Below are positions 19,701 to 63,697 of a stretch of DNA of 64,000 nt, one piece after another. Made by a program: the position numbers and the translations under genes. Source of the stretch: Streptomyces sp. NRRL B-1347 (lineage in GTDB: Bacteria; Actinomycetota; Actinomycetes; Streptomycetales; Streptomycetaceae); the NCBI RefSeq assembly GCF_000720325.1, contig NZ_JOJM01000005.1:124001-188000 (forward strand). Direction: 5' to 3'. Each line of letters begins with the position of its first letter. Within the stretch, counting starts at the first letter, position 1. The notes beneath the pieces were generated by a model. It was not told where the DNA came from. It made no database searches and saw only the letters and a list, made by a program, of their open reading frames with translations.

Positions 19701-20926
19701 CCACCCGCATCGCCGGGCACAAACAGCTGGAGGACATCACCCTCCGCTACACCGACGACGAGGAACGGGTCACCCGCACCCACGAGTTCGGCGACACCCG
19801 GCACCGCAACGTGCTGTACACGCCGACCGCCGTCACCCGCTTCCGCGAGTACTTCCACCCCACCATCACCGACGACCGCGCCAACGTCACCCGCCTCGGC
19901 CCGACCGCGGCCCCCCTGCCGGTGCCCAGCTCCCGCAGGCCCGAACCGCCCGCCGTCGCCTACGCCGTGCCGACCCTGCGCCACGACCGCAGCGTCGACC
20001 AGCAGCGGGCCGCCGTCACCCAGCGCCGCCGCCCCGCGGGCCTGCGCGTCTATCTGAACCGCCCGTGGTACTCCTCGGGCGACGACGAGATGCTCGCCGT
20101 GGTGCTCGACACCGGCACCGACCTGCCCGACACCCTCGCCACCCGCTGGGGCGTCGACCCGGTCTGGTCCGACACCACGGTCCTGCCGCGCCCGCAGGCC
20201 ACGCACTTCCCGAACGCGGAGCAGCGCCCGACCGGTCTGCGCCTGCCCGGCTCACCCGACACGGCACCCGTGCTGGTCGACGCGGCGGCCTTCACCCCGT
20301 CGTACGACAAGGGGCGCAAGCTCTGGTACGTCGACATCGACGTGGACTTCGGCAGCGGCGGGGCCACCGCCTACTTCCCCTACCTGCGCCTCGCCCTCGC
20401 CCGCTACCAGCCGTACGCGGTCGACCCGCTGCACCTGTCGAAGGTGGAGCGGGCGGAGTTCACGCAGCTCCTGCCGCCGCGCACGCTCACCGGGCGGCGC
20501 GAGGGCAACCAGCTCACGGCCGCCCTCACCGGCCCGGCCACGTACAACGAACTCGGTGAGATCAGCGGCACGGGCACCACCGCCGCGGCCGCCTGCCGCC
20601 GGGTCACCCTCACCCTCCAGACCCGGGCGAGCCTGGGGGAGGACGACATGGACTGGAAGGACCTGGGCACCCCCGTGGACCTGACCTGTCGTGCCGACGG
20701 CACGGGCTTCGCCTGGTCCGGCGGCATCGCGGCCCCCACCGGCCAAGCCCTCACCCTGTACCGGCTGCTCGTCCAGGAGCACGAGCTCTACCGCACCGAC
20801 AAGGACACGGCGACCGACACCGTCACCGTCAACGGCACCCCGGTACCGGCAGCCCGGCGCCTGGTGCACGCCGACTACTTCGACCTGACCGTCGGTCTCC
20901 TGGGCCGGATCGACTTCAAGCTGTAG
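16787..20926 (+). CDS. giant uncharacterised protein (1379 aa), second of a pair
   Basis: No family recognised. The ATG follows the previous stop by 2 bases, with GGAGGTGA at 16772-16779 inside the upstream gene, the classic layout for translational coupling. The same frame is open from 15671, but that part overlaps the upstream gene. No signal peptide or membrane span is evident. The start (SIRWTVLPDGVIEGDTVRVS) looks like a beta domain; 200-290 is helical with an acidic run near 250; the remainder is mostly beta strands with Trp/Tyr/Pro-rich loops, including an Ig-like segment around 560-600 (YRMRARVADLAGNGLE). Partnership with the 1233-aa protein in one large complex is the natural inference. 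A terminator follows. Confidence 0.8.
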   Translation: MVDSIRWTVLPDGVIEGDTVRVSVLVTPNLTGITRLGQSEAFIRWPERLTTLLAGLWFEFDTPEHTYVTQHEPTGHHPPADLDTWKALFKDTTLVSPPERAAALAAEAADTLRSFPGKMVHDEITDVYQAVAVTTTRSRLGGEWARQESLLCEEPPTDHRGWEVPALYLMPDIITREVLDMGRNLAEGYEVVKRAFNQHSDVPRAAADDLTPRVMDRTTEFYTRAVNKHVLPLAETALFYDRPRPSAEALAAEEEEEHRVDFHEACGLLGDYPELQRRFGLVVDRRFTLPASIPDGARVRVRFAGDVPHADDLNAGPLRPWTALRLVRGSVFEAAAATDGLITGGMLNLGVPDTWHLTELDVDGAALKHLDYARTIAVLYDRDVPSSPGSVAHQVAGTATPAARGGGITLMHTVRDHYLAGQIGSDLNRRTNGEVAELTAENLVRGYRVDIGTVDPATGAVRQWQSLLRRRGRYTIRWPGQQPVTLQVRPDEGLVRASAVTATSATSKVLYGHQAVLGWHGWSLAAPRPGRTIGLNEEPEAPAPPVSPDVPLETRFTAEPGSLPALRFGRTYRMRARVADLAGNGLEHTASTPAAVQSEAITYGRWEPVPQPVVVPLLPFNEGESTERLVIRSTVTDDGRHISPDEYVLWRSDVPDHKARSDVDGLDRQYKPTAERHVAPPKTALQMAEEHGVFDAAFGAGKPDRVREEYFAAASRESGSFLDTVVRGPHWPHLPRNLLLEGSIHVAKHDVHDPLPVTPLPLARRGAGLKRGEFIVHNTHQLLLPYLPDVLAEGVMLRGLPGDLENRKIPFPGPWPQAEPFRIRIKEGSGEPHWSGLTERVLEVFLPKGEIATVRLSCYLDPRKLPLLRQWGLLTESAFWQDLRDQDRAFLTRATADGENWMLTPWTEVTLVHAVEKPVEPPSLAELAASRTAEQTAAAISLQVTSHAESTGHVEVDARWSEWLDDVTQDEPTRIAGHKQLEDITLRYTDDEERVTRTHEFGDTRHRNVLYTPTAVTRFREYFHPTITDDRANVTRLGPTAAPLPVPSSRRPEPPAVAYAVPTLRHDRSVDQQRAAVTQRRRPAGLRVYLNRPWYSSGDDEMLAVVLDTGTDLPDTLATRWGVDPVWSDTTVLPRPQATHFPNAEQRPTGLRLPGSPDTAPVLVDAAAFTPSYDKGRKLWYVDIDVDFGSGGATAYFPYLRLALARYQPYAVDPLHLSKVERAEFTQLLPPRTLTGRREGNQLTAALTGPATYNELGEISGTGTTAAAACRRVTLTLQTRASLGEDDMDWKDLGTPVDLTCRADGTGFAWSGGIAAPTGQALTLYRLLVQEHELYRTDKDTATDTVTVNGTPVPAARRLVHADYFDLTVGLLGRIDFKL

Positions 20927-40658: not shown

Positions 40659-41366
40659 TCACGAACGCGGTGCCCGCGTGAGCCGGTCGAGCTGTTCGCG
40701 GATCACCACGTCGGCGGGGAAGCGGGGCGGGCGCTCGGCGCCGCGGTCACTCATGTCCACGATGAGGGTGCCCACGCGCACCAAGGTGTGGTGGTTGACC
40801 AGCGCGGTGCCGTCCGGTCCTGTCGAGCTCAGGTCGAAGGTGACCGCTTCGTCGCCGAACGCCGCGCCCTTCACCAGGGAGATCCGGGAGTTGAGCTTGC
40901 CTTCCGGGGTCTGCCCCACCAGCGTCTCGCAGACCTTGAGCCCCCGCGTCAGCTTCCGGAAGCGCTCGGCGGCTCCGGTGTCCGCGTACGAGGCCAGCCA
41001 GGTGCGGCCGCCCCAGCGCTTGCCGCGCCACCAGAAGTCCTGGATCACGGACGCGGACGCGTGGTGCGCGACGAGCGTGTCGAACACGTCCTGGCAACCG
41101 GGACCCGGCACCCTCACCGGCGGGTCGTAGCGGGGCACGGGCCCTTGCTCCGTGGTGCTCTCGGCCTGCGGCACGTCCGCGTCCCGCAGCAGGAGGGACC
41201 TCAGCTTCCCCGCCGAGAGCGGCCGGGCCCCGGCTGCCGACGGCGTGGCGGACGCCGATGCCGTCTCCTTCGTCCGCCAGGTGTCACCCGCGTCCCGCGC
41301 CGCACACCCGGCGACGACGACCACCGTCACACCCGCCACTGCCAGGCGTGCCCAACGCACCACCAC
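40659..41366 (-). CDS. lipoprotein with PknH-sensor-like layout
   Basis: 235 aa from GTG 41366 (AAGGGGGCA upstream). Hydrophobic signal and lipobox VVAGCAA; Cys should be lipidated. A Ser/Thr/Ala-rich linker follows, then a folded region with three or so Cys (PGCQDVFDTL, LKVCETL), which suggests a disulfide. The PGCQDVFD helix followed by a long beta region is reminiscent of extracellular PknH-like sensor domains, but the match is loose. Surface location is well supported; function is not. Confidence 0.75.
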   Translation of the reverse strand: MVVRWARLAVAGVTVVVVAGCAARDAGDTWRTKETASASATPSAAGARPLSAGKLRSLLLRDADVPQAESTTEQGPVPRYDPPVRVPGPGCQDVFDTLVAHHASASVIQDFWWRGKRWGGRTWLASYADTGAAERFRKLTRGLKVCETLVGQTPEGKLNSRISLVKGAAFGDEAVTFDLSSTGPDGTALVNHHTLVRVGTLIVDMSDRGAERPPRFPADVVIREQLDRLTRAPRS

Positions 41367-41478
41367 TGCCCCCTTGACCGCCTCCGATAGAGCCGGGCAG
41401 ACACTACGGCCCGATGGCGTGGTGGAGCCACCCCGACCCTGCCGGGCGGTGAGCGGCCGTTCCTGCGAGGATCACGGG

Positions 41479-42174
41479 ATGACAGCCGAAACCGCGTACC
41501 ACGGTGAGATGGGCGAGCAGTTCGCCGCGCAAGCCACGGACAGTGCGTACAACGCGTACACCGATCGCCCCGCGATGCTGGAACTGGCCGGTGACGTGCG
41601 GGGACTGCGCGTCCTCGACCTCGGATGCGGGGGCGGGCACTACGCCGCGGAGCTCCTGGAGAGAGGAGCCGCGCACGTCACCGGTGTCGAGGGGAGCGAG
41701 ACCCTCCTTGCGGCCGCGCGGGAGCGGGTCGGTGAACGTGCCGTGCTGCACCACCACGACCTGGAGGAGCCGCTGGCCTTCCTGCGGGACGAGACGTTCG
41801 ACGTGGCCGTGATGGCGCTCGTCTACCACCACGTCGAGGCGCGCGAGCAACTGCTCGCGGAGATCCGGCGCGTGCTGCGGCCGGGTGGCACCCTGCTGGT
41901 CTCCACGACCCACCCCACCAGCGACTGGACGTACTTCGGCGGGTCCTACTTCACCGACGACCGGGTGGAGCTGCCGTTCGGCGCCGGGTTCACCCTCACG
42001 TACCGGCGGATGACCCTCGAGGTCTTCCTCGGTGAACTGCTCGGCGCGGGCTTCGTGATGGAGAAGCTCGTCGAGCCCAGAGCCACGGAGGAGGCCCGGA
42101 GGGTCGATCCGCGCCGGTACGACAAGACCCACCACCAGCCGCTGTTCCTGGCCGTGAGGCTGCGTCGTCCGTGA
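41479..42174 (+). CDS. class I SAM-dependent methyltransferase
   Basis: 231 aa from ATG 41479; the open frame further upstream is not coding. Motif I is VLDLGCGGGHYAAELLERG, followed by GVEGSETLL, FDVAVMALVYHHVE and LRPGGTLLVSTTHPT. It belongs to the Methyltransf_11/UbiE-like superfamily; the last 80 residues form a variable cap (SYFTDDRVELPFGAGF). Substrate unknown. Thirteen-base repeats lie just downstream. Confidence 0.9.
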   Translation: MTAETAYHGEMGEQFAAQATDSAYNAYTDRPAMLELAGDVRGLRVLDLGCGGGHYAAELLERGAAHVTGVEGSETLLAAARERVGERAVLHHHDLEEPLAFLRDETFDVAVMALVYHHVEAREQLLAEIRRVLRPGGTLLVSTTHPTSDWTYFGGSYFTDDRVELPFGAGFTLTYRRMTLEVFLGELLGAGFVMEKLVEPRATEEARRVDPRRYDKTHHQPLFLAVRLRRP

Positions 42175-46657: not shown

Positions 46658-47261
46658 GCCGCCGCGGCAGCCCGACTGGCGCGTCCTCCTCGTCGGAGGT
46701 GCCTCGGGGACGGGCAAGACGACCGTCAGCCGCGCCCTGGCGCGACAGTTCGACGTCCCCGTCGTGGAGGTCGACGACATCGTGGAGGCGCTCCTCGCGG
46801 TGACCCGGCCCGAGCACCTGCCCGAGCTGCACGTCTGGCGCACCCACCCCGAAGCGGCGTACGAGGCACCCGAGTCGGTGGTGGAGCGGCAGATCGCGAT
46901 CGCCCGGGCGCTGCTCCCGGCCGTCGAGGCCGTGGTGGCCAACCACGTGGACACCGATACGCCCGTCATCGTCGAAGGCGACTACCTCCTCCCCGACCTG
47001 GCGGTGGCGGGCGGACCCGTCCGGGCCGTCTTCGTCCACGAGGACGACCCGGCACAGGTGGTGGCCAACTACCTCGCACGCGAGCCGGACGCCGGACCCC
47101 AGCACCACCGGGCCGACGTCAGCGTGCTGTACGGCAGATGGCTGGCCGACCGGGCGCGGGCCTCGGGCGTGCCGGTCGTCACCTCACGCCCGTGGCACGA
47201 CCTGACCCACCGGGCCGGCGCTCAGGCCTGCCCCGCGCGCTCCCGCAGCACGTACTTCTGA
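46641..47261 (+). CDS. P-loop kinase-like protein
   Basis: 206 aa from GTG 46641, overlapping the histidine kinase end. Walker A is [16 protein letters not shown], Walker-B-like strand [10 protein letters not shown]. It resembles 2-phosphoglycerate kinase/zeta-type small-molecule kinases. The last 15 or so residues ([13 protein letters not shown]) are read from the reverse of an acyl-CoA-ligase remnant, so the native C-terminus may be altered. Substrate unknown. Confidence 0.78.
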
Positions 47262-47460
47262 ATCTCGGCCTTCGGGCGCTCGCCCCACAGCTCGTCGGGC
47301 ACGCCCACGACCGGGCCCGGTCGCGCAGCTCCACGTAGCCGTCCGGATGCCGCACCCCGAGGTCACCGGAGTGGAACCGGCCGCCGCGGAACGCCTCGGC
47401 GGTGGCCTCCGCGTCCTCGAAACGGCCCGTCATGACGTTGTTGCCGCGCATGACGACCTC
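47222..47460 (-). pseudogene. acyl-CoA synthetase/AMP-ligase fragments
   Basis: Minus strand, two joined pieces. From 47460 the frame reads [24 protein letters not shown], then [23 protein letters not shown], the A8-A9 region of fatty-acid or acyl-CoA ligases. At about 47,311-47,320 the sequence jumps to another frame reading [21 protein letters not shown] and ends at a stop at 47222. The intervening A10 lysine region and the whole N-terminal domain are lost. It lies between the kinase and the NRPS promoter. Confidence 0.8.
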
Positions 47461-47567
47461 AATGCGCCAACTTTTCGATGTACCGCTCACGCGCTGTGGT
47501 GCGGCCGGCCGGTCCGGGAGGCGGCTGCCCTGTCGGGCGGGGCGCACGCCATCTCCCGTACGGCAAG

Positions 47568-47689
47568 CGGTAGTTGATTCTCCGCTGCGGCCCTCCCCGC
47601 GTGCCGTGGGGGCTCCGCGGCGATTGGCGCGTTGTGGTCCAACCGGAACCGACGCCGTTCCCAGTGTGCTTACTCTCCGGTAGTTGATC
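47568..47689 (+). promoter_or_regulatory. spaced direct repeats upstream of the NRPS
   Basis: CGGTAGTTGAT occurs at 47568-47578 and 47678-47688, exactly 110 bp apart, and each is followed by T or C. TCTCCG motifs lie just after the first copy and just before the second. Even helical spacing suggests paired regulator sites; no -10/-35 was confidently placed. Confidence 0.45.
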
Positions 47690-47739
47690 ATGGCGGGCGG
47701 TTACGACGCCCTGGCCGGAGCATGGAAGGTGCGCACGCG

Positions 47740-50700
47740 GTGAACGATGTTGCAGGGACCTCGCTGACGGCGTATCAGCGGGACATCTGGGTCGGCGCCC
47801 GACGCGCGCCGGAGTCGCCGCAGTTCAACTGCGTGCTGTGGGACCGCATCGAGGGCCGTGTCGACCTCGGTGCCCTGCTGGCCTGCGCGGAGCGCGCACT
47901 GCGCGGGCACGAGGCGCTTCGGCTGCGCTTCGACGAGCACGAGGGGGCGCCCCGGCAGTGGGTGGACCCGGAGCCGCTCCGGGTCCGGGTGCGGGACTTC
48001 TCCGACGGCCCGGACGCCACCGAGAGGTGCGCCGCGTGGCGGGAGCGTTCGCTGGCGCGCGCCCTGCCGCTGACCGGTGGGCCGCTGGTGGAGGCGACGG
48101 TGCTGGTGGAGGGCCCCGAGGTGGTGCACCTGCACGTCAAGGCACACCATCTCGTCGCCGACGGCTGGGCGTTCGACCTGCTGAGTCGGCAGATCCTCCA
48201 GGACTACCGGCGGCGGGCGCACGGCGACGGACGGCCCGCCCCGGCCGGGACGTCGTCCTACCTCGCCTGGGCCGACGAGGAGGCGCGCTACCGGAACGGC
48301 GCGGAGCACGCGCGGGACGAAGCCTTCCACCGGCGGGCACTCGACGGCGCGACCCCCGCGCTGTTCACCCGCACCCCGGCCGCCGGCGGGCACCGGGTGC
48401 GCCACGCGTTCGTGGTGGAAGGTGCACTGGTGGAGCGGGTGAAGAGCGCGGGCCTGTCCCCGTTCGCGTACGTCGCCGCGGTGCTCGGCAGCTATCTCGC
48501 CCGCGTCCACCGCAGTGAGGAAACGATTCTGGGGATCCCTTTCCACAACCGGCCCGACGCCGGGCAGCACGGCATCGTCGGTCAGTTCGCCAACACCCTG
48601 CCGCTGCGGATCGCCGTCGGCGGCACGCGCACCGTCAGGGAGCTGGCGGCCGCCGTGCGGGAGACGGTGGACACGCTGCGCCCCCACCAGAGGCTCGCCC
48701 TCGGTGACGTCCTGCGCGCGCTGCCGTCGGCCGCGGGGCCTCGGCAGCTGTTCGACGTGACGCTCTCGTATCTGCGCTACGACCGTTCGGAGGGCCTCCC
48801 GGACCTCGCCTGGCGCACCAGCATGCTGGCCGTGGGGCACGACACGGACGCCCTGGCCGTGACCGTGCAGGCCTTCGACGGCGTGGCCGACATGCGCGTG
48901 GAGCTGGACGGCGCGGGTGACGTGTTCGACGCGGACTTCCCGCTGGCGGCGGCCGCCCGGCAGCTGAAGACACTGATGGAGAACGGCCTGGACGCACTGG
49001 ACCGGCCCGCATCGACGGTGGAGATGCTCACCCCGGCGGACCGCGCGGACCTGACCGCGGTGCGCGGCCACGGGCCGAAGGTGCCCTTCGCCGACCGGGC
49101 CACGCTGCACGGCCTCTTCGAGGAGCAGGCCGCCCGCCGCCCCGACCAGGTCGCCGTGACCGGTCATGCGGGGGAGACGCTCACCTACGCCGAGCTCGAC
49201 GCGCGGGCCGACCGGGTCGCGCGCGCCCTGCGCGCCGACGGCGTGGGCCGTGACGACCGGGTCGCCGTGGTGATGCCGCGCTGCCCGCAGCTGTTCGTGG
49301 CGCTGCTCGGCATCTTGAAGGCGGGCGGCGCGTACGTTCCGGTGGACCCCCGCCACCCCGCCGATCGCGTGCGCTTCCTCCTCGCCGACAGCAGCGCCAA
49401 GGTGGTCGTCGTCGAGGACGAGGCACCGCTGACCGGCGTCCCCGACGAACTGCCCGTACGCAGCGTCGGCGATCTGCTGCACCGCGGCGATCTGCTGAAG
49501 GACAGCGGCCCGCTGGTGGAGCGCGCCGGCATACCTTCACCGACGGCCACGGCTGACGACCTCGCGTACGTCATCTACACCTCCGGCTCGACCGGCCGGC
49601 CCAAGGGCGTGCTGGTCGAACACCGCAGCGTCGTGAACCGCCTGGCATGGATGCAGCGGACCTACCCCCTCGGCGAAGGCGACGTCCTGCTGCAGAAGAC
49701 CCCCATCTCCTTCGACGTATCGGTCTGGGAGCTGTTCTGGTGGGCGATCGAAGGCGCGTCGGTGGCCCTGCTGCCGCCCGGCGGGGAACAGGATCCGCGC
49801 GAGATCCTCCGGACGATCGGCCGTCGGGGGATCAGCAAGGTGCACTTCGTGCCGTCCATGCTCGGCCCCTTCCTCGACCTCCTGGAGGAGGAGCCGAAGT
49901 CGCGGGCGGACGTCGCGTCGCTGCGACACGTCTTCTGCAGCGGCGAGGCACTGCCCGCGGCGCGCGTGGACCAGTTCAACCGGCTCTTCGGGCCCGACCC
50001 GGCGGTGCGCCTGGTGAACCTGTACGGCCCCACCGAGGCCACGATCGACGTCACGTACCACGACTGCCCGTCCGATCCCGCCCGCCCCGTGACCCGGGTC
50101 CCCATCGGCCGTCCGATCGACAACATCCAGCTGTACGTCCTGGACCCCGCGGGCCTGCCCCAGCCCGTCGGCGTGCCGGGGGAGCTGTGTATCGGGGGTG
50201 TCGGCGTCGCGCGCGGCTATCTGGGCCGCGCCGACCTCACCGCCGAGAAGTTCATCGACGACCCCTTCACCCCGGGCGGTCGCCTCTACCGCACCGGCGA
50301 CCTCACGCGCTGGCTCGCCGACGGCAGCGTCGCCTACCTGGGACGCATCGACGCCCAGGTGAAGATCCGCGGCAACCGCGTGGAGCCGGGCGAGGCCGCG
50401 CGGGCCCTCGCCGACGTCCCCGGCGTCCGTGACGCGGTGGTCGTCGACCACACCACACCCCGCCGCGGCACTCACCTGATCGGCTACTACGTCGCCGAGA
50501 CCGCCATCCCCGCACAGCGGCTGCGGGACCACCTGGCACAAACGCTCCCCGCCTTCATGATCCCGGCCCGGTTCCTGCGCATCGACGGCATCCCCCTGAC
50601 CCCCAACGGCAAGGCCGACCGCCGCGCCCTGCCGCTCCCTGAGGCAGAGGCGGACCAGGCGGCCGGTGCACAGCCGCTCGACGCCACGCAGGCGGCTCTC

Positions 50701-53700
50701 GCGGAGATCTGGGCGCGGGTCCTCGACGTCGAGCGCGTCGGCATCCACGACGACTACTTCGCGCTCGGCGGCGACTCCATCCTGATGCTCAAGGTCCGCG
50801 CCGAAGCGGAGAAGCGAGGCCTGCGCTTCACCCTCAGCGAGCTGTTCCAGCACCCGACGGTGGCCCAGCTCGCAGCACGCACCACCGCGCACCACGGTGA
50901 CGCCGAAGAGACCGATCCCGAGCCGGAGCCGTTCGCGCTCCTGCCGGAGGCGGACCGCGCGCGACTCGCGGACGAGGCCGACGCCTTCCCCCTCACCCGG
51001 CTCCAGCTCGGCCTGCTCTACCACAGCCGTGAACACGAGGGCTCGGCCCGCTACAAGGACGTGTTCCAGTACACCCTGGACATGCCCTGGCACCACGACG
51101 CCTTCCACCGGTCGTTCGACCGGCTGACGGCGCGCCACCCGGTCCTGCGCTCCTCCATGGACCTTGCCGGATTCACCGAACCGCTCCAGATCGTCCACCA
51201 CCGGCTGCCCGGCGCCCTGGACGTCGCCGACCTGCGCGCCCTCTCCCGCAGCGAAGCCGACGCCGAGGTGCGGCGGCACGTCGAGGAGCGCCGCCACCAC
51301 CCCTACCCGCTCGACGGGACACCCTTGTACCTGCTGCGGGCCCATCTGCGCGGCACCGGCGTGGAACTGGTGCTGAGCTTCCACCACGCGCTCCTCGACG
51401 GCGCCAGCGTGGCCAACCTGCTGCGGGAACTCCTTCAGGACTACGCGCACGAGCTGGGCACCGGTACCGCACCGGTCCCGGCGTCGCCCCCGCCCTCGCC
51501 GGCCGCCTACGCGTACGCGGAGCGGCGCGCCCTCGCCGACGACGCGGCCCGCCGCCACTTCCGGGACACGCTCGCGCACGCCGGACCGCCGCGGATCGAC
51601 GGCCTCGGACCGCACCTGCCGCACGGGGAGCACAGCGCGGTCGCGCACCGCGCCGACCTGCCCCGGGCCCTGGTCCGCCGACTGCGGGCCGTCGCCGCCG
51701 AGCACACCCTGCCCGTGAAGTCCCTGCTCTTCGCCACGCACTGCCTCACCCTCAGCGCGCTGGCGAGCAGCCGGGACATCACCACCGGCCTGATCACCCA
51801 CGGCCGTGTCGAACGCGCCCACGCCGAGCGCGCCGTCGGCCTCTTCCTGAACACCGTCCCCCTGCGCGTGGACACCGCCCGCGACAGCTGGCTCGACGTG
51901 GCCCGCGAAGCCCTGCGGCAGGAGCGTGACAGCCACCCCCACCGCCGCTACCCGCTGAGCGCCGTCGAGGAACACCACGGCGGCCCGGTCGTGGACAGCG
52001 CCTTCAACTACGTGCACTTCCACCAGCTCGCCGGTCTCGCCGAGCTGCCCGGCATCGAGCTGCGGTCACTGCGCACCTGGGAGGAGTCGAACTTCCGGCT
52101 CCTGGTGAACGCGGTCACCGAACCCGACGGGAACCACACCTGGCTGCGCGTCGACGCCGACGGCAGCACCTTCTGCGCGGCGCAGGCCGCGCTCTACGCG
52201 CGGCACTACCTGGAGATCCTGACGCGCCTGGCGGAAGAGCCGCACGCGAGACCGGACTTCACCTTCCTCGCCGCTCCGGTCCCGTCCACCGCGCCCAAGG
52301 CACACCCCAGCGTGGTGGAACGCTTCGCCGAGCAGGTGACGCGCACGCCGCAGGCCACCGCGCTGGTGAGGGGACAGGACCGCTGGAGCTACACCGACCT
52401 GAACACCGCCGCCGACCACGTGGCACGACAACTGCGGACGGCAGGCACCCCGGCGGGAGCGCGCGTCGCCATCGCCATGGACCGCTCGCCGCACACCGTC
52501 GCCGTACTCCTGGGAGTGCTGAAGGCCGGTGCCGCGGTGGTGCCGCTGGACACCAACTACCCCGCCCCGCGCCTCGCGGCGATGCTCGCGGAGGCCCGGC
52601 CCTTCCGCGTCATCGCCACCGCCCGGCACGCACATCTCGCCGGTGACGTGCCGCTGCTGCCCGCCGAGGACCTCATCCGGCCGCGGCCGGACACCGCCGG
52701 ACGGCAGCAGGACGAAGGACCCGGGGCGCGTTCACAACCCGAGGGCACCGCACCGGACTCGGTCGGCGCCGGTGCCGCACGCGGCCGGATCGACCCCGGT
52801 CACACCGCGTATGTCCTGTTCACCTCCGGCTCCACCGGCCGCCCCAAGGGCGTCGCGATGCCGCACCGCTCCCTGGCCCACCTCGTGGCCTGGCAGCTCG
52901 CGGCGTCCAGCGGCGCGACGGGCGGCTCGACGCTGCAGTACGCGCCGCTGAGCTTCGACGTCTCCTTCCAGGAGATCTTCTCCACGCTCTGCGGCGGCGG
53001 CACCCTGCATCTGGTCGGCGAGGCCGAACGGCACGACATGCCCGCGCTGCTGCGCCTCATCGACCAAGAAGGCATCCAGCGCGTCTTCCTGCCCTACGTG
53101 GCGCTCCAGCACATGGCGGAGACCTCCGACGCCCTCGGCCTCGTACCGCGCGGGCTGCGGGTCCTGATCTCCTCCGGCGAGCAACTGCGCGTCACCCCCG
53201 AGATACGCCGCCTGTGCGCCGCGCTGCCGGGCGTCATCCTGGAGAACCAGTACGGGCCGACCGAGACCCATGTCGCCACCGCCCACACCATGGCCGGGGA
53301 CCCGGCGGCCTTCCCCGCGCTGCCGCCGATCGGCGTCCCCGTCGAGGGGGCGGAGGCGCACGTCCTGGACGAGGAGCTGCGCCCGCTGCCCGCAGGGGCG
53401 CGGGGCGAGATCCACTTGGGCGGCGCCTGCCTCGCGGACGGCTACGAAGGGCAGCCCGAGCTGACCGACGAGCGCTTCGTCCCCAGCCCGTTCACCCCGT
53501 CGGGCCGCCTGTACCGCACCGGCGACCTCGGCCTGGTGCTGCCCGACGGCGGCATCGTCTGCGTGGGCCGCGCGGACAGCCAGGTCAAGGTGCGCGGCTT
53601 CCGCGTCGAGCCCGCCGAGGTGGAACTCGCCCTGCACGAGCTCACCGCGTACCGCGGCCACCTGCGGGAGGCCGCGGTCGTCGCCAGGCAGCGCGAGGGC

Positions 53701-55029
53701 GGCGACTGCTTCCTCGCCGCGTTCCTGACCGGTGACGCCGACCGCGTCGACCTGGACGCGCTGCGCGGCGAACTGCGGGGCGTCCTGCCGGACTTCATGG
53801 TTCCCGCACACCTGGAGTGGATCCCCCGGCTGCCGCTCACCCCCAGCGGTAAGCGGGACGACGCCGCGCTCCGCGCGATGCCCCTCGCCCGGCGCGCGGT
53901 GACGCGGGCCCACGCACCCGACGCCCTCGAAGAGGAGCTGACGCGTCTGCTCGCCGACCTGCTGGGGCTGCCCGACGTCGCGCCGTACGACAGCCTCTTC
54001 GAGCTCGGCGGTACCTCCCTGACCGCGATGCGCCTCGCTGTGCGGATCGAGCAGCGCTACCAGCTGGTCATCCCCCTGGCCGCGCTCGTCGCGGAACCCA
54101 CCGCGGCCGCGCTCGCGACACGCCTGCGGTCCGGCCGCAAGGCCACCGCGTTCGACCCGCTCGTACCGATCCGTACGGGAGGCTCCCGTCCGCCGCTGTT
54201 CCTCGTGCACCCCATGGGCGGAAACGTGCTCTGCTACCTGCCGTTCGCCCGGCACCTGCCCGACGACCAGCCGCTGTACGCGCTCCAGGCGGCCGGGACG
54301 CACCAGGGCACCGCACCGCTCGACAGCGTCGAGGAGATGGCCCGCAGCTACCTCGCCGCGCTGCGCACCGTGCAGCCGCAGGGCCCCTACCAGCTCGGCG
54401 GCTGGTCCTTCGGCGGCTTCGTGGCGTACGAGACGGCCCGTCAGCTACGGGCCGCGGGGGAGGAGGTCAGCCATCTCGTCCTCCTCGACACCACCGCCCT
54501 CAGGCCCGGCCCGCGCCCCCGGCACGACGACGAGGCGCTCCTGCACTGGTTCTTCTGGGAGCTGCTCTGGCTCGACCGCGGCGGCGACTCGCCGATGCCG
54601 TCGTTCCCCGGCACGCTCACCTCGCTCACCGACAAGCTCGCCTTCGTCGCCCGCGCCGCGAGCGACGCCGGAGTCCTGCCGGCGGGCAGCTCCACCGCTG
54701 CCGTCCACCGCCTCTTCGACCTCTACCGCGCCAACTGGCGCGCCGCGCTCGACTACCGGCCCGAGGACACGCGACAGGACCTCACCCTGATCCGTGCCTC
54801 CCAGCCGCTGCCGCCCGTCCTCGCTGCGATGCACCGCACCGCCCGCAGCCGCCACCAGGACCGGACCAACGGCTGGAGCGACATCACCAGCGGCCTGCTC
54901 CGCGTCATCGACGTGCCCGGCGACCATCTGACCCTCATGGAGGAACCGAACGTGCACCACACGGCGAAGACCGTCACCGACCTGCTGACGAGCCGGTCAG
55001 CCGACGCGACGCGGGCGGGGGAGCGATGA
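47740..55029 (+). CDS. dimodular NRPS C-A-T-C-A-T-TE, predicted Ser then Pro-type
   Basis: 2429 aa from GTG 47740 with GGAAGG about 9 bases upstream; ATG 47722 is an alternative. C1 (starter type) has HHLVADG at 136-142. A1 (about 455-965) gives the ten-residue code DVWHFSLIDK by alignment to GrsA and EntF, a serine code. T1 Ser1013 in LGGDSI. C2 HHALLDG at 1215-1221. A2 (about 1527-2050) reads FDVSFQEIFST, ISSGEQL and YGPTETHVAT, the surroundings of proline A domains, with code DVQVISQVAK instead of DVQLIAHVVK. T2 Ser2093 in LGGTSL. TE (about 2141-2420) has GWSFGG, Ser2223. The likely product is an N-acyl-Ser-Pro-like chain released by the TE, as in pyrrolizixenamide PxaA and legonmycin LgnB. 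Confidence 0.93.
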   Translation: MNDVAGTSLTAYQRDIWVGARRAPESPQFNCVLWDRIEGRVDLGALLACAERALRGHEALRLRFDEHEGAPRQWVDPEPLRVRVRDFSDGPDATERCAAWRERSLARALPLTGGPLVEATVLVEGPEVVHLHVKAHHLVADGWAFDLLSRQILQDYRRRAHGDGRPAPAGTSSYLAWADEEARYRNGAEHARDEAFHRRALDGATPALFTRTPAAGGHRVRHAFVVEGALVERVKSAGLSPFAYVAAVLGSYLARVHRSEETILGIPFHNRPDAGQHGIVGQFANTLPLRIAVGGTRTVRELAAAVRETVDTLRPHQRLALGDVLRALPSAAGPRQLFDVTLSYLRYDRSEGLPDLAWRTSMLAVGHDTDALAVTVQAFDGVADMRVELDGAGDVFDADFPLAAAARQLKTLMENGLDALDRPASTVEMLTPADRADLTAVRGHGPKVPFADRATLHGLFEEQAARRPDQVAVTGHAGETLTYAELDARADRVARALRADGVGRDDRVAVVMPRCPQLFVALLGILKAGGAYVPVDPRHPADRVRFLLADSSAKVVVVEDEAPLTGVPDELPVRSVGDLLHRGDLLKDSGPLVERAGIPSPTATADDLAYVIYTSGSTGRPKGVLVEHRSVVNRLAWMQRTYPLGEGDVLLQKTPISFDVSVWELFWWAIEGASVALLPPGGEQDPREILRTIGRRGISKVHFVPSMLGPFLDLLEEEPKSRADVASLRHVFCSGEALPAARVDQFNRLFGPDPAVRLVNLYGPTEATIDVTYHDCPSDPARPVTRVPIGRPIDNIQLYVLDPAGLPQPVGVPGELCIGGVGVARGYLGRADLTAEKFIDDPFTPGGRLYRTGDLTRWLADGSVAYLGRIDAQVKIRGNRVEPGEAARALADVPGVRDAVVVDHTTPRRGTHLIGYYVAETAIPAQRLRDHLAQTLPAFMIPARFLRIDGIPLTPNGKADRRALPLPEAEADQAAGAQPLDATQAALAEIWARVLDVERVGIHDDYFALGGDSILMLKVRAEAEKRGLRFTLSELFQHPTVAQLAARTTAHHGDAEETDPEPEPFALLPEADRARLADEADAFPLTRLQLGLLYHSREHEGSARYKDVFQYTLDMPWHHDAFHRSFDRLTARHPVLRSSMDLAGFTEPLQIVHHRLPGALDVADLRALSRSEADAEVRRHVEERRHHPYPLDGTPLYLLRAHLRGTGVELVLSFHHALLDGASVANLLRELLQDYAHELGTGTAPVPASPPPSPAAYAYAERRALADDAARRHFRDTLAHAGPPRIDGLGPHLPHGEHSAVAHRADLPRALVRRLRAVAAEHTLPVKSLLFATHCLTLSALASSRDITTGLITHGRVERAHAERAVGLFLNTVPLRVDTARDSWLDVAREALRQERDSHPHRRYPLSAVEEHHGGPVVDSAFNYVHFHQLAGLAELPGIELRSLRTWEESNFRLLVNAVTEPDGNHTWLRVDADGSTFCAAQAALYARHYLEILTRLAEEPHARPDFTFLAAPVPSTAPKAHPSVVERFAEQVTRTPQATALVRGQDRWSYTDLNTAADHVARQLRTAGTPAGARVAIAMDRSPHTVAVLLGVLKAGAAVVPLDTNYPAPRLAAMLAEARPFRVIATARHAHLAGDVPLLPAEDLIRPRPDTAGRQQDEGPGARSQPEGTAPDSVGAGAARGRIDPGHTAYVLFTSGSTGRPKGVAMPHRSLAHLVAWQLAASSGATGGSTLQYAPLSFDVSFQEIFSTLCGGGTLHLVGEAERHDMPALLRLIDQEGIQRVFLPYVALQHMAETSDALGLVPRGLRVLISSGEQLRVTPEIRRLCAALPGVILENQYGPTETHVATAHTMAGDPAAFPALPPIGVPVEGAEAHVLDEELRPLPAGARGEIHLGGACLADGYEGQPELTDERFVPSPFTPSGRLYRTGDLGLVLPDGGIVCVGRADSQVKVRGFRVEPAEVELALHELTAYRGHLREAAVVARQREGGDCFLAAFLTGDADRVDLDALRGELRGVLPDFMVPAHLEWIPRLPLTPSGKRDDAALRAMPLARRAVTRAHAPDALEEELTRLLADLLGLPDVAPYDSLFELGGTSLTAMRLAVRIEQRYQLVIPLAALVAEPTAAALATRLRSGRKATAFDPLVPIRTGGSRPPLFLVHPMGGNVLCYLPFARHLPDDQPLYALQAAGTHQGTAPLDSVEEMARSYLAALRTVQPQGPYQLGGWSFGGFVAYETARQLRAAGEEVSHLVLLDTTALRPGPRPRHDDEALLHWFFWELLWLDRGGDSPMPSFPGTLTSLTDKLAFVARAASDAGVLPAGSSTAAVHRLFDLYRANWRAALDYRPEDTRQDLTLIRASQPLPPVLAAMHRTARSRHQDRTNGWSDITSGLLRVIDVPGDHLTLMEEPNVHHTAKTVTDLLTSRSADATRAGER

Positions 55030-57584
55030 CCGGCGTGACGCTCGGCGAGGAGAAGGCCCAGGGCGGCGGCAAGCCCCGCACCGCCCTGATCATCGGCGCG
55101 GGCATCGGCGGCCTGACCGCCGCCGTCGCGCTGCGCCGCGTCGGCATCCACGTCGAGCTCTACGAGCGCGCCGGAGAGCTGCGTGCCGCCGGATCCGGCC
55201 TGTCGGTGATGAGCAACGCGATCAGCGCACTCGCCACGCTCGACATCGACCTCGGTCTGGAGAAGCGCGGCCGGACCGTCGAGTCGTTCACCGTCCTCGA
55301 CCACCGCGGCCGCCTGATCCGCGACCTGCCGTTCCGCGAGGCATGTGCCGAGGCGGGCGCCCCCAGCGTGGGCCTGAGCCGCTCGGCGCTGCAAGAAGCC
55401 CTGCTCGCGGAGGTCGGCGACTGCCCCCTGCACCTCGGGGCCACCGCCGCGGGCCTGCGTACCGAAAGCACGGGCGTCACCGTCGAGTTCACCGACGGCC
55501 GCACCGCCCACGGCGACTTCCTCATCGGCGCCGACGGCTTCCACTCGGCGATACGCCGCCACCTCAACGGCCCTGAAGAGGGGCGGAACAGCGGCTACCT
55601 CTGCTGGCTCGGCATCGTCCCCTTCCAGCATCCGGTGTTCACCCCCGGCAGCGTGCGCCACTACTGGGGCAGCGGACAGCGCTTCGGCCTGATCGACATC
55701 GGTGACGGTCGCGCCTACTGGTGGGGCACCAAGAACGTCCCCGCCACACACGCGCTCGACCGGTACGGCGCCAAGGACGTCGTCGAGCGCGCGTTCACCG
55801 GCTGGGCCCCGGAGATCCGCGAGGTCGTCCACGCCACGTCGCAGGACGACATCCTCACCGTCCCCTCCTTCGACCGCCCCTTCCGCGACCGCTGGGGAGA
55901 CGGGCCCGTCACCCTGCTCGGCGACGCGGCCCACCCCATGCTCACCACGCTCGGACAGGGAGCGGCGATGGCGATCGAGGACGCCGTCGTCCTGGCCCAC
56001 ACCCTGGCCGAACCCGGTGCGGACGACGACATAACCCGCGCGCTGCGCACGTACGAAGGCCGCCGCCGCGAGCGCACCCGCGCGATGGTGGCGGCTTCCC
56101 GTGAGATGAGCGACCTCGAACAAGCCGCGTCCCCTCCCCGCAGGCTGGCCCGCGACAGCTACTTCCGGTTCACCCCGCGCGCCACCCTCGCCCGCCGCTC
56201 CGCCCAGGCGCTGACGTTTCCCGCCCTGCCCGCCACCACCCCGCAGGTGCGGCGGGAACTCAGCCCGCTGGAGCGCTGGTACTGGATCGCGGACCAGGCC
56301 TCACCCCTCAGCGGAGTCGTCCGCGCCCGTGTGCACGGCACGCTCCCCGTCGCACTCCTGCGCCGGGCTCTGGACGCCCTCCAAGCCAGACATCCCCTGC
56401 TGCGGGCCGCGATCAGCAGCGACGGCGGCACAGGGGCCTTCCGCCCCGTGGACGACCGGCCCATCCCGCTGCGGCACGTCACCCTGTCCCCTCAGGACTC
56501 CGACGACCACTGGGAACACGAGGTCAACGAGTACGAGTTCGAGCACGGGATCGACTGGCGCGAGGGCCCGTTGCTGCGCGCCACCGTGATCAGCCGCCCG
56601 GGCGGCGAGCCGCGCAAGGACACCCACGATCTGCTGCTCACCGCTTCGCACTGCATCGCCGACGGGATGACAGGCCTGTCCCTGCTGCGCCAGTGGATCG
56701 AACTCGCCGGGCACCTGAGCACCGGTGCGGAGCCGCCCGCCACCTCCTACCCGGCCCTGCCCGCCGCCGAGGACCTGCTGCCGCGCCGACACCGCGGTGG
56801 ACGGGGAGCGGCGGGTCTCGGCGCCCTGATGCTGCGCGACCAGCAGACGGCACGCCGCCTGAGCCCGCAGCGCGTGACACCCCAGCGGAACGTTCCCTTC
56901 GAGCGGCGCCGGACCCGCATGGTGCACCGCACGCTGACCGCCGAGCAGGTGGACGGCCTGCTGGCCGCCTGCAAACGCCACGGCGCGACCGTCCACGGCG
57001 CCCTCGCGGCGGCCATGGTCACCGCCGTCGCCCAGGACGCGGGCATCACGGCGCCCGCGCACTTCGCGATCGGTTCGCCCGTCGACTTCCGCGACCGGCT
57101 GCACCCCGCCCCCTCCTATGACGACGCGGGCAGCTACGCGGCGACCCTGCCCTCGTACGTTCCCTACCAGCCCGGCACCGCGCTGTGGCCCATGGCCCGG
57201 TTCATCAGCGAGGACCTGGCGCGCCGCACCCGGCGCGAGGAACACCTGTCGATGGTCAACCTGCTGCGCTGGGCGGGACCGAAGTCGCCCGCCCGGGCCG
57301 AGGGGTTCATGGAGTTCATGGACACCAAGGGCCCGCTCAACCTGTGCCTGTCCAACCTCGGGCGCTACGACTTCCCCGAGCGCGTGGGCCCCTGGCGGAT
57401 CAGCGACGCCCAACTCGTGGCCGGGATCTCCGTGACCGGAGCGCTCATCGCGACCGCGAACACCAGCCACGGCCAACTCGCCTGGAACTTCAGTCACATC
57501 GACGGCGTCGTCACACCCGCACGCGCGCGGACCGTCGCCGACGCCTCCGTGCGCGCGGTACTGGCAGCCAGCACCGCGCCGTAG
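55026..57584 (+). CDS. FAD monooxygenase fused to PapA/condensation-type acyltransferase
   Basis: 852 aa; ATG overlaps the NRPS stop (ATGA). Residues 1-390 form a group A flavin monooxygenase: IIGAGIGGLTAAVAL, ERAGELRAAGSGLS, GADGFHSAIRR and GDAAHP (Asp300). A linker follows, then from about 417 a condensation/PapA-like acyltransferase with H542-C-I-A-D546-G, the HxxxDG motif, and a later IGSPVDFRDRL, which corresponds to the DFGWG region. The flavin half fits a Baeyer-Villiger-type oxidase converting indolizidine to pyrrolizidine, as proposed for LgnC/PxaB. The second half could acylate a resulting hydroxyl. Which acyl donor it uses is unknown. Confidence 0.88.
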   Translation: MTGVTLGEEKAQGGGKPRTALIIGAGIGGLTAAVALRRVGIHVELYERAGELRAAGSGLSVMSNAISALATLDIDLGLEKRGRTVESFTVLDHRGRLIRDLPFREACAEAGAPSVGLSRSALQEALLAEVGDCPLHLGATAAGLRTESTGVTVEFTDGRTAHGDFLIGADGFHSAIRRHLNGPEEGRNSGYLCWLGIVPFQHPVFTPGSVRHYWGSGQRFGLIDIGDGRAYWWGTKNVPATHALDRYGAKDVVERAFTGWAPEIREVVHATSQDDILTVPSFDRPFRDRWGDGPVTLLGDAAHPMLTTLGQGAAMAIEDAVVLAHTLAEPGADDDITRALRTYEGRRRERTRAMVAASREMSDLEQAASPPRRLARDSYFRFTPRATLARRSAQALTFPALPATTPQVRRELSPLERWYWIADQASPLSGVVRARVHGTLPVALLRRALDALQARHPLLRAAISSDGGTGAFRPVDDRPIPLRHVTLSPQDSDDHWEHEVNEYEFEHGIDWREGPLLRATVISRPGGEPRKDTHDLLLTASHCIADGMTGLSLLRQWIELAGHLSTGAEPPATSYPALPAAEDLLPRRHRGGRGAAGLGALMLRDQQTARRLSPQRVTPQRNVPFERRRTRMVHRTLTAEQVDGLLAACKRHGATVHGALAAAMVTAVAQDAGITAPAHFAIGSPVDFRDRLHPAPSYDDAGSYAATLPSYVPYQPGTALWPMARFISEDLARRTRREEHLSMVNLLRWAGPKSPARAEGFMEFMDTKGPLNLCLSNLGRYDFPERVGPWRISDAQLVAGISVTGALIATANTSHGQLAWNFSHIDGVVTPARARTVADASVRAVLAASTAP

Positions 57585-57693
57585 ACGGCGGTGCGGACGA
57601 AGCCGGCGCCGAGGCGGCCCACGCCGCCCCGGTCCGCCCGCGGACAGACCCCCCACGCATCGCACGCCCCAGCGGCCAGCCTAGGAGCATGAA

Positions 57694-58578
57694 TTGATTC
57701 ACTGTCAGAAGAAGGCCCGCACCGGGGCGGGCCGGACCGTCGTCATCACCGGCGCCTCCTCCGGGCTCGGCAAGCACTGCGCGCTGCATCTGGCACGGCA
57801 CGGCTTCCGAGTCTTCGCCGGAGTGCGCAAGGAGGCCGACGGCGAGCTGCTGCGCGCCGAAGCGGCCTCCGCGCCGCTCCTGCCCGTCATCCTGGACGTC
57901 ACCGACGAGAGCTCGATCCGCACCGCGGCGGACACCGTCGCCGAGGCGTCGGGCGGGCACGGCATCTGGGCGCTGGTGAACAACGCAGGGACGTGCGTGT
58001 CGGCACCCCTGGAATGCGTGCCGCCGGGCGAGCTGGGCGACCAGCTCGCCACCAACGTCGTCGGTCCCCTCGCGGTCACCCAGGCCCTCCTGCCGCACCT
58101 GCGCCGCACGCGCGGCCGGATCGTCAACGTCACCTCGGGCCTGGGCAGCATCGCCGCTCCGTATCTCGGCGCGTACGCCACGGGCCAGTTCGCGAAGGAA
58201 GGCATGAGCGACGCGCTCCGCAGGGAACTGCGGCCCCAGGGCGTCACGGTCTGCGTGGTCCAGCCGGGCGCGGTCAACACGCCCATCTGGGGCAAGGTGC
58301 GGGAGACCGGCCACGAACTCCTCGACCGGACACCCGAGGGCATCAGGGAGCTCTACGGCCCCACCTTCGAACGGTTCCTGCGGCTGAACGAACAGCGGGC
58401 CCAGGCGAGTCGCACCCGGCCCGAGGACTTCGCCCGCGGTGTCTGTCACGCGTTGAGCGCCCCGCGGCCCAGGACCCGCTACCGCATCGGCGCCGACGCG
58501 CAGGCCGCGGCGATCCTGTCCCGGCTCCTGCCCGACGCGGCCGTCGACCGGTGCCTCGGCGCCGTCACCAAGCGCTGA
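57694..58578 (+). CDS. atypical short-chain dehydrogenase/reductase
   Basis: 294 aa from TTG 57694, with CTAGGAG 6 bases before it; an out-of-frame ATG at 57689 makes a two-codon mini-ORF ending in TGA. NAD(P) motif VVITGASSGLGKH (TGxxxGxG), NNAG in ALVNNAGTC, catalytic Ser region NVTSGLGSIA, Tyr in GAYATGQFAKEGMSDALRREL. The usual YxxxK has Gln in place of Lys (Tyr-Ala-Thr-Gly-Gln). It may retain ligand binding with altered catalysis. It follows the monooxygenase gene by about 110 bases and probably tailors or regulates the NRPS product. Confidence 0.85.
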   Translation: MIHCQKKARTGAGRTVVITGASSGLGKHCALHLARHGFRVFAGVRKEADGELLRAEAASAPLLPVILDVTDESSIRTAADTVAEASGGHGIWALVNNAGTCVSAPLECVPPGELGDQLATNVVGPLAVTQALLPHLRRTRGRIVNVTSGLGSIAAPYLGAYATGQFAKEGMSDALRRELRPQGVTVCVVQPGAVNTPIWGKVRETGHELLDRTPEGIRELYGPTFERFLRLNEQRAQASRTRPEDFARGVCHALSAPRPRTRYRIGADAQAAAILSRLLPDAAVDRCLGAVTKR

Positions 58579-58611
58579 GGCACTCTCGCGGCGGACCCGC
58601 CGTAACCCCGC

Positions 58612-60982: not shown

Positions 60983-62395
60983 ATGACCGTTGACGCCAGC
61001 CGGGAGGCACAGCTGGAGCCGCAGCCGCGGACCAGCCTGGGCACGGCAGGTGCCCGCAACCTCGCCACCACGACCAAGTCCGCCCCGCAGATGCAGGAGA
61101 TCACCTCCCGCTGGCTGCTGCGGATGCTGCCCTGGGTGGAGACCAAGGGCGGCACGTACCGGGTGAACCGCCGACTGACGTACACCGTCGGCGACGGGCG
61201 CATCGATTTCATCCAGGACGGCGCGGACGTCCGGGTCATCCCCAGGGAGCTCGGCGAACTGGCCCTGCTGCGGGGCTTCGACGAGGACGACGTGCTGACC
61301 GCGATCGCCGACCGGTGCGTGCAGCGCGACTTCCGCTCCGGTGAGGTCCTCGTGGAGCGCGGCGCGCCCGCCGAGCAGCTCCACCTGATCGCCCACGGCC
61401 GCATCAACCAGACCTCCGTGGGCAAGTACGGCGAGGAGGTCGCCATCGCGGTGCTCGGCGACGGCGACCGGTTCGGCGACGACGCCCTGCTGGACGCCGA
61501 CGCCACCTGGGACTACACGGCCACCGCCGAGACCGACGGCACCCTCGTCACGCTCTCCCGCGGCGACTTCGCCGCCCTGCTCGACACGGCGCCGAGCCTG
61601 CGGGCGCACATCGAGCAGTGGAGCGCGCTGCCCCAGCAGCGGCAGAACCGGCACGGCGAGGCGGAGATCGCGCTCTCGGCCGGACACACGGGCGAGCCGG
61701 TGCTCCCCGGCACGTTCGTGGACTACGAACTCCACCCGCGCGAGTACGAACTGTCCGTCGCCCAGGCCGTCCTGCGGGTCCACACCAGGGTCTCCGACCT
61801 CTACAACGGCCCGATGAACCAGACCGAGGAACAGCTCAGGCTCACCGTCGAGGCGCTGCGCGAGCGCCAGGAGCACGAGCTGGTCAACAACCGCGAGTTC
61901 GGCCTGCTGCACAACGCCGACCTCAAGCAGCGGATCCAGCCCCACGCGGGACCGCCGAGCCCCGACGACATGGACGCGCTGCTCTGCCGGCGCCGCGGCA
62001 CCAAGTTCTTCCTCGCCCACCCCAGGACGATCGCGGCAATCGGGCGCGAGTTCAGCGCCCACGGGCTCTACCCGGACAACGTCGACCTGGGCGGGCAGCA
62101 GGTCCCGGCCTGGCGCGGCGTGCCGATCCTGCCCTGCAACAAGATCCCGATCACCAAGGAGAACACCAGCTCCATCCTCGCCATGCGCATCGGCGAGGAC
62201 AACCAGGGCGTCGTCGGCCTGCGCCAGACCGGTCTGCCGGAGGAGTACGAACCGGGCCTCTCGGTGCGCTTCATGGGGATCAACGACCAGGCGGTCCTGT
62301 CCTACCTCGTCACGACGTACTACTCCGCCGCCATCCTGGTGCCCGACGCGCTGGGGGTGCTGGAGAACGTCCAGATCGGCCGCAGGCCCGCCTAG
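60983..62395 (+). CDS. family 2B encapsulin-type shell protein with cyclic-nucleotide-binding domain
   Basis: 470 aa. An N-terminal arm, [18 protein letters not shown], precedes a Crp-type cyclic-nucleotide-binding domain (about 95-205: [38 protein letters not shown]). The rest is an HK97-like shell domain, including [40 protein letters not shown], and [21 protein letters not shown]. These proteins were long called EshA-like or Crp-family MIB-operon proteins and are now placed among family 2B encapsulins, whose cargo is 2-MIB synthase. It should form a cytosolic compartment around that enzyme; ligand binding may gate it. The three-gene order (shell, synthase, methyltransferase) is the standard one. 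Confidence 0.92.
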
Positions 62396-62518
62396 GCCCC
62401 TCGTCATCGAGGCCCGCCCTCCCCGAGGCCACGCCGGGCCGGGGCCCCTCCGGACCGGCCGAGCGCGCCGGGAGAGCAGGGCCCGGGACAGCCCACCCAC
62501 GTCATCTAGGAGACACGG

Positions 62519-63697
62519 ATGCCCGATTCCGGGCCTTCACCCCTGCCACCGGGCGCGATCGAACCGAACCCCGCGCTCGCCCGGGTCCTGAGCGGCCCCA
62601 GCGGCCTGGGGACGACGAGCCTGAGCCTGGTCCGGCGCGACGCGCTGCCGGTCCCGTCGGTCCCGCCGGATCCGGAGCCGCTGCAGCCCGAGCCGCCGGA
62701 GCAGCCGCCTCCGGCGGCGGGCAGGCCGATCCCCGGCCTCTACCACCACCCGGTACCCGAGCCCGATCCCGTACGGGTGGAGGAGGTCAGCCACCGGATC
62801 AAGCGCTGGGCCGTGGACGAGGTCGAGGCGTACCCCCCGGAGTGGGAGGACCAGTTCGACGGCTTCTCCACCGGCCGGTACATGGTCGCCTGCCACCCGG
62901 ACGCGCCCACCGTCGAGCACGTGATGGCCGCCGCCCGGCTCATGGTCGCCGAGAACGCGGTCGACGACTGCTACTGCGAGGACCACGGCGGCTCCCCGGT
63001 GGGCCTCGGCGGCAGGCTGCTGCTCGCGCACACCGCGCTCGACCCGCTCCATACGACGAAGGAGTACGCGCCCGACTGGCTGGAATCCCTTCAGTCGGAC
63101 GCCCCGCGGCGCGCGTACCGCTCCGCCATGGAGTACTTCGTCCAGCTGGCCACCCCCTCCCAGGCCGACCGGTTCCGGCACGACATGGCCCGGCTGCACC
63201 TGGGGTACCTCGCGGAGGCTGCCTGGGCCGAGACGGGTTACGTGCCGCAGGTGTGGGAGTACCTGGCGATGCGCCAGTTCAACAACTTCCGTCCCTGCCC
63301 CACCATCACCGACACCGTCGGTGGCTACGAACTCCCGGCGGACCTGCACGCACAGCCCGCCATGCAGCGGGTCATCGCCCTGGCAGGCAACGCCACCACC
63401 ATCGTCAACGACCTGTACTCGTACACCAAGGAGCTGGCCAGCCCCGGCAAGCACCTCAACCTGCCCGTGGTGATCGCCGAGCGGGAGGGCCTCTCCGAGA
63501 AGGAGGCCTACCTCAAGGCGGTCGAGGTCCACAACGAACTCATGCACGAGTTCGAGGCCACGGCCGCCGAGTTGGCCGCCGCCTTCCCCGACCCGCGCGT
63601 GCTGCGCTTCCTCAAGGGCGTGGCCGTCTGGCTCGACGGCAACCACTACTGGCACATGACCAACACCTACCGCTACAGCCTTCCCGATTTCTGGTAA
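62519..63697 (+). CDS. tpc: 2-methylisoborneol synthase (terpene cyclase)
   Basis: 392 aa, AGGAGA before the ATG. The first ~85 residues are Pro-rich and disordered and are likely the encapsulation tag. The class I terpene synthase core has the acidic motif DDCYCED at 149-155 and the NSE triad Asn297, Ser301, Glu305 (NDLYSYTKE). Both bind the Mg2+-diphosphate. It cyclises 2-methyl-geranyl diphosphate to 2-methylisoborneol, the earthy odorant. The C-terminal GNHYWHMTNTYRYSLPDFW is conserved in these synthases. Confidence 0.97.
   Translation: MPDSGPSPLPPGAIEPNPALARVLSGPSGLGTTSLSLVRRDALPVPSVPPDPEPLQPEPPEQPPPAAGRPIPGLYHHPVPEPDPVRVEEVSHRIKRWAVDEVEAYPPEWEDQFDGFSTGRYMVACHPDAPTVEHVMAAARLMVAENAVDDCYCEDHGGSPVGLGGRLLLAHTALDPLHTTKEYAPDWLESLQSDAPRRAYRSAMEYFVQLATPSQADRFRHDMARLHLGYLAEAAWAETGYVPQVWEYLAMRQFNNFRPCPTITDTVGGYELPADLHAQPAMQRVIALAGNATTIVNDLYSYTKELASPGKHLNLPVVIAEREGLSEKEAYLKAVEVHNELMHEFEATAAELAAAFPDPRVLRFLKGVAVWLDGNHYWHMTNTYRYSLPDFW

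Follow-up and report, generated by a model that had tools for sequence, protein, structure and literature searches.

In Pseudomonas aeruginosa, the azetidomonamide/azabicyclene operon azeB-E codes for a non-ribosomal peptide synthetase (NRPS; PA3327, azeB), an FAD-dependent monooxygenase (PA3328, azeC), a hypothetical protein (PA3329, azeD) and a short-chain dehydrogenase (SDR; PA3330, azeE) (PMC9040856; this and the other published systems are described here from the available portions of the reports cited). In a stretch of 64,000 nucleotides from Streptomyces sp. NRRL B-1347 (contig NZ_JOJM01000005.1, positions 124,001 to 188,000), in the following called the window, a three-gene unit was identified which matches this operon in its protein types and their order. 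The azeC and azeD genes are separate in P. aeruginosa, whereas their counterparts in the window are fused. This compact azeBCDE-like cluster probably directs the synthesis of a small bicyclic nitrogen compound belonging to the pyrrolizidine/azabicyclene family; the AzeD half and the SDR would reduce and dehydrate an intermediate, most likely at its acyl chain.

Other systems have been described with which the window can be compared. For pyrrolizixenamide, PxaA and PxaB are the enzymes involved, and an analogue of the core was made from pxaA, pxaB and azeJ in E. coli (PMC11794875). The ring contraction was reported to be non-enzymatic for the products of both PxaB and BraC (PMC11177316). For LgnC from the legonmycin system LgnA-D, mutation of H200, Y219 or W221 abolished or nearly abolished the activity (PMC11457151). 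Clipibicyclene from Streptomyces cattleya and metaze A and B belong to a bicyclocarbamate/azetidopyrroline family, compared here by description only; an aze-like organisation was reported for metaze, with the bicyclocarbamate as the direct product, which converts spontaneously to the azetidopyrroline (PMC13386464). In the same report, ClpP was inhibited by metaze B, and metaze A was inactive at 100 uM. Further literature for comparison is found in PMC8748450, PMC10880069 and PMC9854587. The features of the window are as follows.

47459..58583, + strand: shared unit, defined by the extent of about 98% DNA identity to plasmid pSSP121038, with the three genes for NRPS, fused flavin protein and SDR
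47740..55029, + strand: NRPS, by Pfam and codes (open reading frame (ORF) open from 47632; candidate starts ATG 47722 and GTG 47740)
47761..49056, + strand: first condensation domain C1, HHLVADG at 48145
49117..50613, + strand: first adenylation domain A1, code DVWHFSLIDK (taken as Ser)
50695..50877, + strand: first carrier domain T1, GGDSI at 50767
50956..52242, + strand: second condensation domain C2, probably dehydrating (CmodAA type), KSLLFATH at 51718
52267..53901 (approximate), + strand: second adenylation domain A2, code DVQFISQVAK (Pro-type)
54007..54030, + strand: carrier motif GGTSLTAM of the second carrier domain T2
54193..54978, + strand: thioesterase domain TE, GGWSFGG at 54397
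55026..57584, + strand: fused protein of 852 aa, joining a Baeyer-Villiger monooxygenase (BVMO) to AzeD
55083..56225, + strand: LgnC/PxaB-type FAD monooxygenase half, H212 at 55659, R219 at 55680, Y231 at 55716, W233 at 55722
56241..57581, + strand: AzeD-like half, Pfam PapA_C and Condensation, H542-xxx-D546-G547 at 56649-56666
57694..58578, + strand: SDR oxidoreductase, by Pfam, at the position corresponding to azeE

An earlier note on this DNA had proposed a C-A-T-C-A-T-TE synthetase with the code DVWHFSLIDK in A1, followed by an overlapping FAD monooxygenase gene and a nearby SDR. All of this was borne out: Pfam gave Condensation, AMP-binding and PP-binding domains, two of each, with a single Thioesterase domain, the A1 code was recovered by motif anchors, the NRPS stop shares four bases (55026-55029) with the ATG of the flavin gene, and the SDR lies at 57694-58578. 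No alignment to a known A domain entered the reading of the codes; both the positions of the anchors and the assignment of DVWHFSLIDK to Ser are presumed by us. For C1, the best PDB matches were Txo1 and Txo2, then an RzmA domain titled starter C domain, by which its subtype is not settled. C2 matched best to McyA (234 bits) and AmbE (150 bits), the title of PDB 7r9x being dehydrating condensation domain AmbE-CmodAA, and its KSLLFATH resembles the motif given for dehydrating C domains (PMC11342130); C2 is probably a dehydrating domain of the CmodAA type.

The earlier note had made its pyrrolizidine assignment depend on the clustering of A2 with proline-activating domains and of the flavin domain with LgnC and PxaB. 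A2 was found in one clade with the A2 of a Xenorhabdus hominickii NRPS (locus L017; 25 A2 rows, 99% support in the Shimodaira-Hasegawa-like approximate likelihood ratio test, SH-aLRT), a locus classed as Pxa-like by genus and layout, not by its product. Apart from the A1 rows, the tree contains no more than five further A domains, and no proline domain that has been characterised; only rows longer than 380 aa were used, which left 50 of 52. From code and clade, proline is the predicted substrate of A2, and the locus has the Ser/Thr-then-Pro bimodular NRPS with a TE, adjoining a BVMO, which is expected of a bacterial pyrrolizidine cluster.

In the flavin half, the LgnC residues S48, H200, R207, Y219, W221 and T295 (numbering of PMC11457151) have the counterparts S60, H212, R219, Y231, W233 and T307 at a constant offset of +12, mapped by residue number and not by alignment with the LgnC sequence. 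The motifs YWWGTKN and GDAAH are present, as in the LgnC/PxaB type (YWWxTKN, GDAAH). In a tree without the LgnC, PxaB and BraC sequences, from which the frame-broken L013 was left out, 25 NRPS-linked rows including the window were split from 18 outgroup rows by a branch with 99% SH-aLRT. H212, Y231 and W233 occur in 25/25 of the NRPS-linked rows; in the outgroup, the histidine is found in none, the tyrosine in 11 and the tryptophan in one. All three are kept in 60/60 of the best relatives listed after the window's own protein, and among the 119 matches listed for a flavin-only query, the histidine stands in 116, the tyrosine in 119 and the tryptophan in 116; P0064-P0067 were left out of the residue counts.

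The C-terminal half of the flavin ORF, on which the earlier note is silent, is a second enzyme. Its nearest PDB structure is AzeD (8s6l, 373 bits), and the HxxxDG motif is kept in 60/60 of the best relatives listed. Alignments by VIA-align extend to Foldseek's best 1000 chains. The AzeD homologue characteristic of the azetidomonamide family is thus present. Since the window has an AzeD half and an SDR, both of which the Pxa-like L017 lacks in the 21 kb examined, azeBCDE is the closest known operon, AzeD being likened by sequence and AzeB, AzeC and AzeE by description only. The earlier assignment was thus supported in part: the A2 clade and the LgnC-type flavin residues agree with a pyrrolizidine type, and the placement next to Pxa gave way to azeBCDE.

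Pyrrolizixenamide and legonmycin share with the window the Ser/Thr-Pro NRPS and the LgnC-type BVMO residues. No AzeD is named for lgn in the available text; for legonmycin, LgnB and LgnD each carry part of the NRPS, and a type II thioesterase (TEII) accompanies them, whereas the NRPS of the window is a single protein. The bohemamine/legoncarbamate cluster lga likewise has a C-A-T-C-A-T-TE layout, Ser and Pro/methyl-Pro as substrates and an LgnC-like BVMO, but contains additional tailoring genes for a methyltransferase, a branched-chain keto acid dehydrogenase (BCKDH) and an isovaleryl-CoA dehydrogenase, with no AzeD named in the portions available (PMC7820566). Neither an AZE synthase nor an acyl carrier protein (ACP) nor FabH was identified by Pfam among the neighbours from 41152 to 63697, a scan which left aside the minus-strand ORF 47179-47691 and smaller ORFs and involved no AzeJ sequence comparison. 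AzeJ resembles class I methyltransferases (PMC11794875); a fold of this type is encoded at 41152-42174, outside the shared unit. The genome contains five ClpP proteins, none on the contig of the window, so the co-located clpP of the ClpP-inhibitor family is missing here; a motif search of the relatives' loci, crude and without positive control, gave no clpP either. In the literature searched, which did not include the clipibicyclene report, no description of a fused BVMO-AzeD protein with a proline-type A2 was found. The pyrrolizidine/azabicyclene family itself is already known, and the fusion is a variant form of it.

For the pathway, we infer that C1 would N-acylate Ser on T1, that C2 would dehydrate the seryl residue to dehydroalanine and condense it with proline, and that the TE would close an N-acyl dihydroindolizinone. 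The BVMO half would then insert oxygen, giving a [5+7] oxazepine carbamate, which by analogy with PxaB may contract to the pyrrolizidine without a further enzyme. The SDR and the AzeD half would reduce and dehydrate, most likely at the beta position of the N-acyl chain, to yield an alpha,beta-unsaturated amide. The side chain is preferred for these two enzymes because PxaA and PxaB are described as the pyrrolizixenamide enzymes and the contraction is non-enzymatic; taken alone, the chance that the chain, and not the core or the seryl residue, is the site of dehydration appears to be even. What the earlier note called 'possibly new acylation' would more plausibly be a modified acyl chain, probably a desaturated one.

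Three other explanations have to be weighed against this one. In one, the AzeD half would act not on the acyl chain but on the seryl residue or the bicyclic core; its fusion to the BVMO, which probably arose in two lineages, suggests a task on the substrate or product of the BVMO. This is somewhat unlikely, since PxaA and PxaB are described as making the pyrrolizixenamide core and the NRPS motifs are unchanged in loci that lack AzeD. The C-terminal half was at first read as a PapA5-like acyltransferase, which would esterify a hydroxyl made by the SDR and give an ester-bearing pyrrolizidine. It matches Pfam PF16911 and NCBIfam PapA5, its HxxxDG is conserved as given above, and some relatives carry hydroxylase-type genes (PhyH in L115 and L116, a P450 in L113), but after the nearest structure proved to be AzeD this reading was demoted and is now considered unlikely. 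A brabantamide-type product, for which the carbamate would rearrange not to a pyrrolizidine but to a [5+5] enol carbamate, could be envisaged because the first step is common to BraC and PxaB and the outcome differs with enzyme and side chain (PMC11177316); it is very unlikely for this locus, as nothing in the window, compared with no BraC sequence, points to it.

Several observations weigh against reduction and dehydration of the acyl chain by the SDR and the AzeD half, or against parts of this proposal. The name dehydratase is the PDB title of 8s6l, for which no paper was found in the literature search, and an AzeD-like protein from outside such clusters (L094) matches 8s6l with 352 bits versus 373 bits for the window, which makes the transfer of function from AzeD unsure. 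Among 40 loci, the SDR accompanies an AzeD with the motif histidine in 15/18 cases versus 4/22 otherwise (Fisher p 7.9e-5, kinship ignored), but the link is not significant after correction for relatedness (median p 0.125 over 7 independent pairs). His-AzeD occurs without a window-type SDR in L113, L114 and L153, and the SDR without AzeD in L079, L120, L121 and L122. LgnC Q350 has no counterpart at the +12 offset, where S362 stands, and the Pfam-scanned neighbours offer no FabH or carrier gene. For metaze A, the difference of the chain from crotonyl was ascribed by the authors to an acyl-CoA dehydrogenase (PMC13386464).

L094, L126 and L127 also have AzeD-like genes, and the stretches examined there contain no flavin gene of the LgnC type. 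No NRPS is present among the annotated genes of L094 or nine scanned genes of L126, and the AzeD-like gene of L094 is surrounded by type III polyketide synthase and fatty-acid genes.

A contig scan gave at least 80 loci, ten at 46-70% identity and the other 70 at 39% or less; protein searches gave at least 120 matches, and absence from either set carries little weight. For closer comparison, 26 loci were used, namely the window, these ten, the plasmid copy and 14 further genomes, with L093/window and L015/L118 as near-copies. A same-family NRPS adjoins the flavin gene in 26/26 of them, and in 15/15 loci of a genus inferred to be Nocardia (15 of its 43 matching genomes), so the pairing is not due to chance. 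At 1e-80, matches were found in 15/150 genomes of the window's genus and in 43/98 of the inferred Nocardia genus; class-wide, a Nocardia query at the same threshold matched 2/197 genomes, the window's own included, and P0002 at 1e-60 matched 5/61 relatives, two through the AzeD half alone.

Six of the 26 loci are fused, counting L114 with its frame-broken AzeD half, seven have a separate AzeD gene (L012, L013, L015, L115-L118) and thirteen are without AzeD in the stretch examined. The 15 inferred-Nocardia loci comprise eight fused, five split and two without AzeD. In 7/8 of these fused loci the histidine of HxxxD is replaced by tyrosine, the preceding residue being His in three, and the same replacement occurs in 42/55 'Nocardia-like' rows among the matches listed, which include at least four partial or AzeD-only Streptomyces proteins (P0083, P0085, P0090, P0094). 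The window-type SDR is found in 0/8 fused and 5/5 split inferred-Nocardia loci. About 7.3 kb separate the SDR from the flavin gene in L158, L159 and L163. Other SDR-like genes (single-linkage groups) in L016 and L114 did not match the window SDR at 1e-15.

In L012, L013, L015 and L118, the A2 code DVQHCSHAAK is combined with a split AzeD and an SDR. L015 contains by Pfam a flavin reductase/acyl-CoA dehydrogenase-like pair, and the other three carry the same gene families. L113 and L114 are fused, have the A2 codes DIQFICHVVK and DIQFICQVVK, and have a methyltransferase, not the SDR, adjoining the fused gene. That of L113 was considered as an AZE synthase and dropped, as a PDB search gave N6AMT1/HemK matches and no AzeJ entry among 57.

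In the flavin tree, the fused rows are divided between two distinct groups with good support, and each group also includes one AzeD-less row (L119, L162). The approximately unbiased (AU) tests address no more than the question of a single clade for all fused rows; such a clade was rejected for the flavin tree (p 1.4e-5; 7e-5 with L119 and L162 admitted) and not rejected for the AzeD tree (p 0.082). By parsimony, the fused label requires four changes on the flavin tree, compared with two for the AzeD tree. Two fusions are the simpler reading of these trees; alternatively, one old fusion may have been followed by several losses.

The same three genes are present on plasmid pSSP121038 of Streptomyces sp. 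YIM 121038, with DNA identities of 98.2% over 47459-57683 and 98.1% over 57683-58583, the match being interrupted at 57683 by a transposase gene of the plasmid. Because the identity ends on both sides of the three genes, transfer as a unit, in either direction, is suggested. For the same reason, the upstream two-component genes and the downstream sigma/anti-sigma, encapsulin and terpene genes, all outside 47459-58583, were excluded as cluster members. No shared words of 9, 10, 11, 12 or 14 bases, direct or inverted, were found at the ends (60 bases outside, 20 inside). Of 16 plasmid records matched, pSSP121038 is the only one in which a single place accounts for 80% or more of the fused protein, and among 19 matches within the genome only one is full-length.

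Elsewhere in the window, coding periodicity is strong in two long ORFs (13083-16784 and about 16787-20926, + strand), neither of which gave a Pfam or NCBIfam match at the limits used; a flavin monooxygenase and a methyltransferase follow. At 60983-63697 (+ strand), a Family 2B encapsulin shell gene adjoins its terpene cyclase cargo gene.

Tentatively, and with considerable doubt, it might be proposed that BVMO and AzeD, fused at least twice, act in sequence on one intermediate and release an unsaturated bicyclic carbamate built on proline. This would be the pyrrolizidine equivalent of clipibicyclene, able to modify ClpP and made with no clpP guard gene; the fusions of the inferred Nocardia genus, which lack the SDR and mostly have Tyr where the AzeD His would stand, would use their AzeD half differently. 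Proteins publicly named mostly 'FAD-dependent monooxygenase' are now tied to the aze/pyrrolizidine family. The fusion makes two enzymes expressible as one gene, and the three-gene cluster is small enough for a direct test for a ClpP-reactive carbamate.
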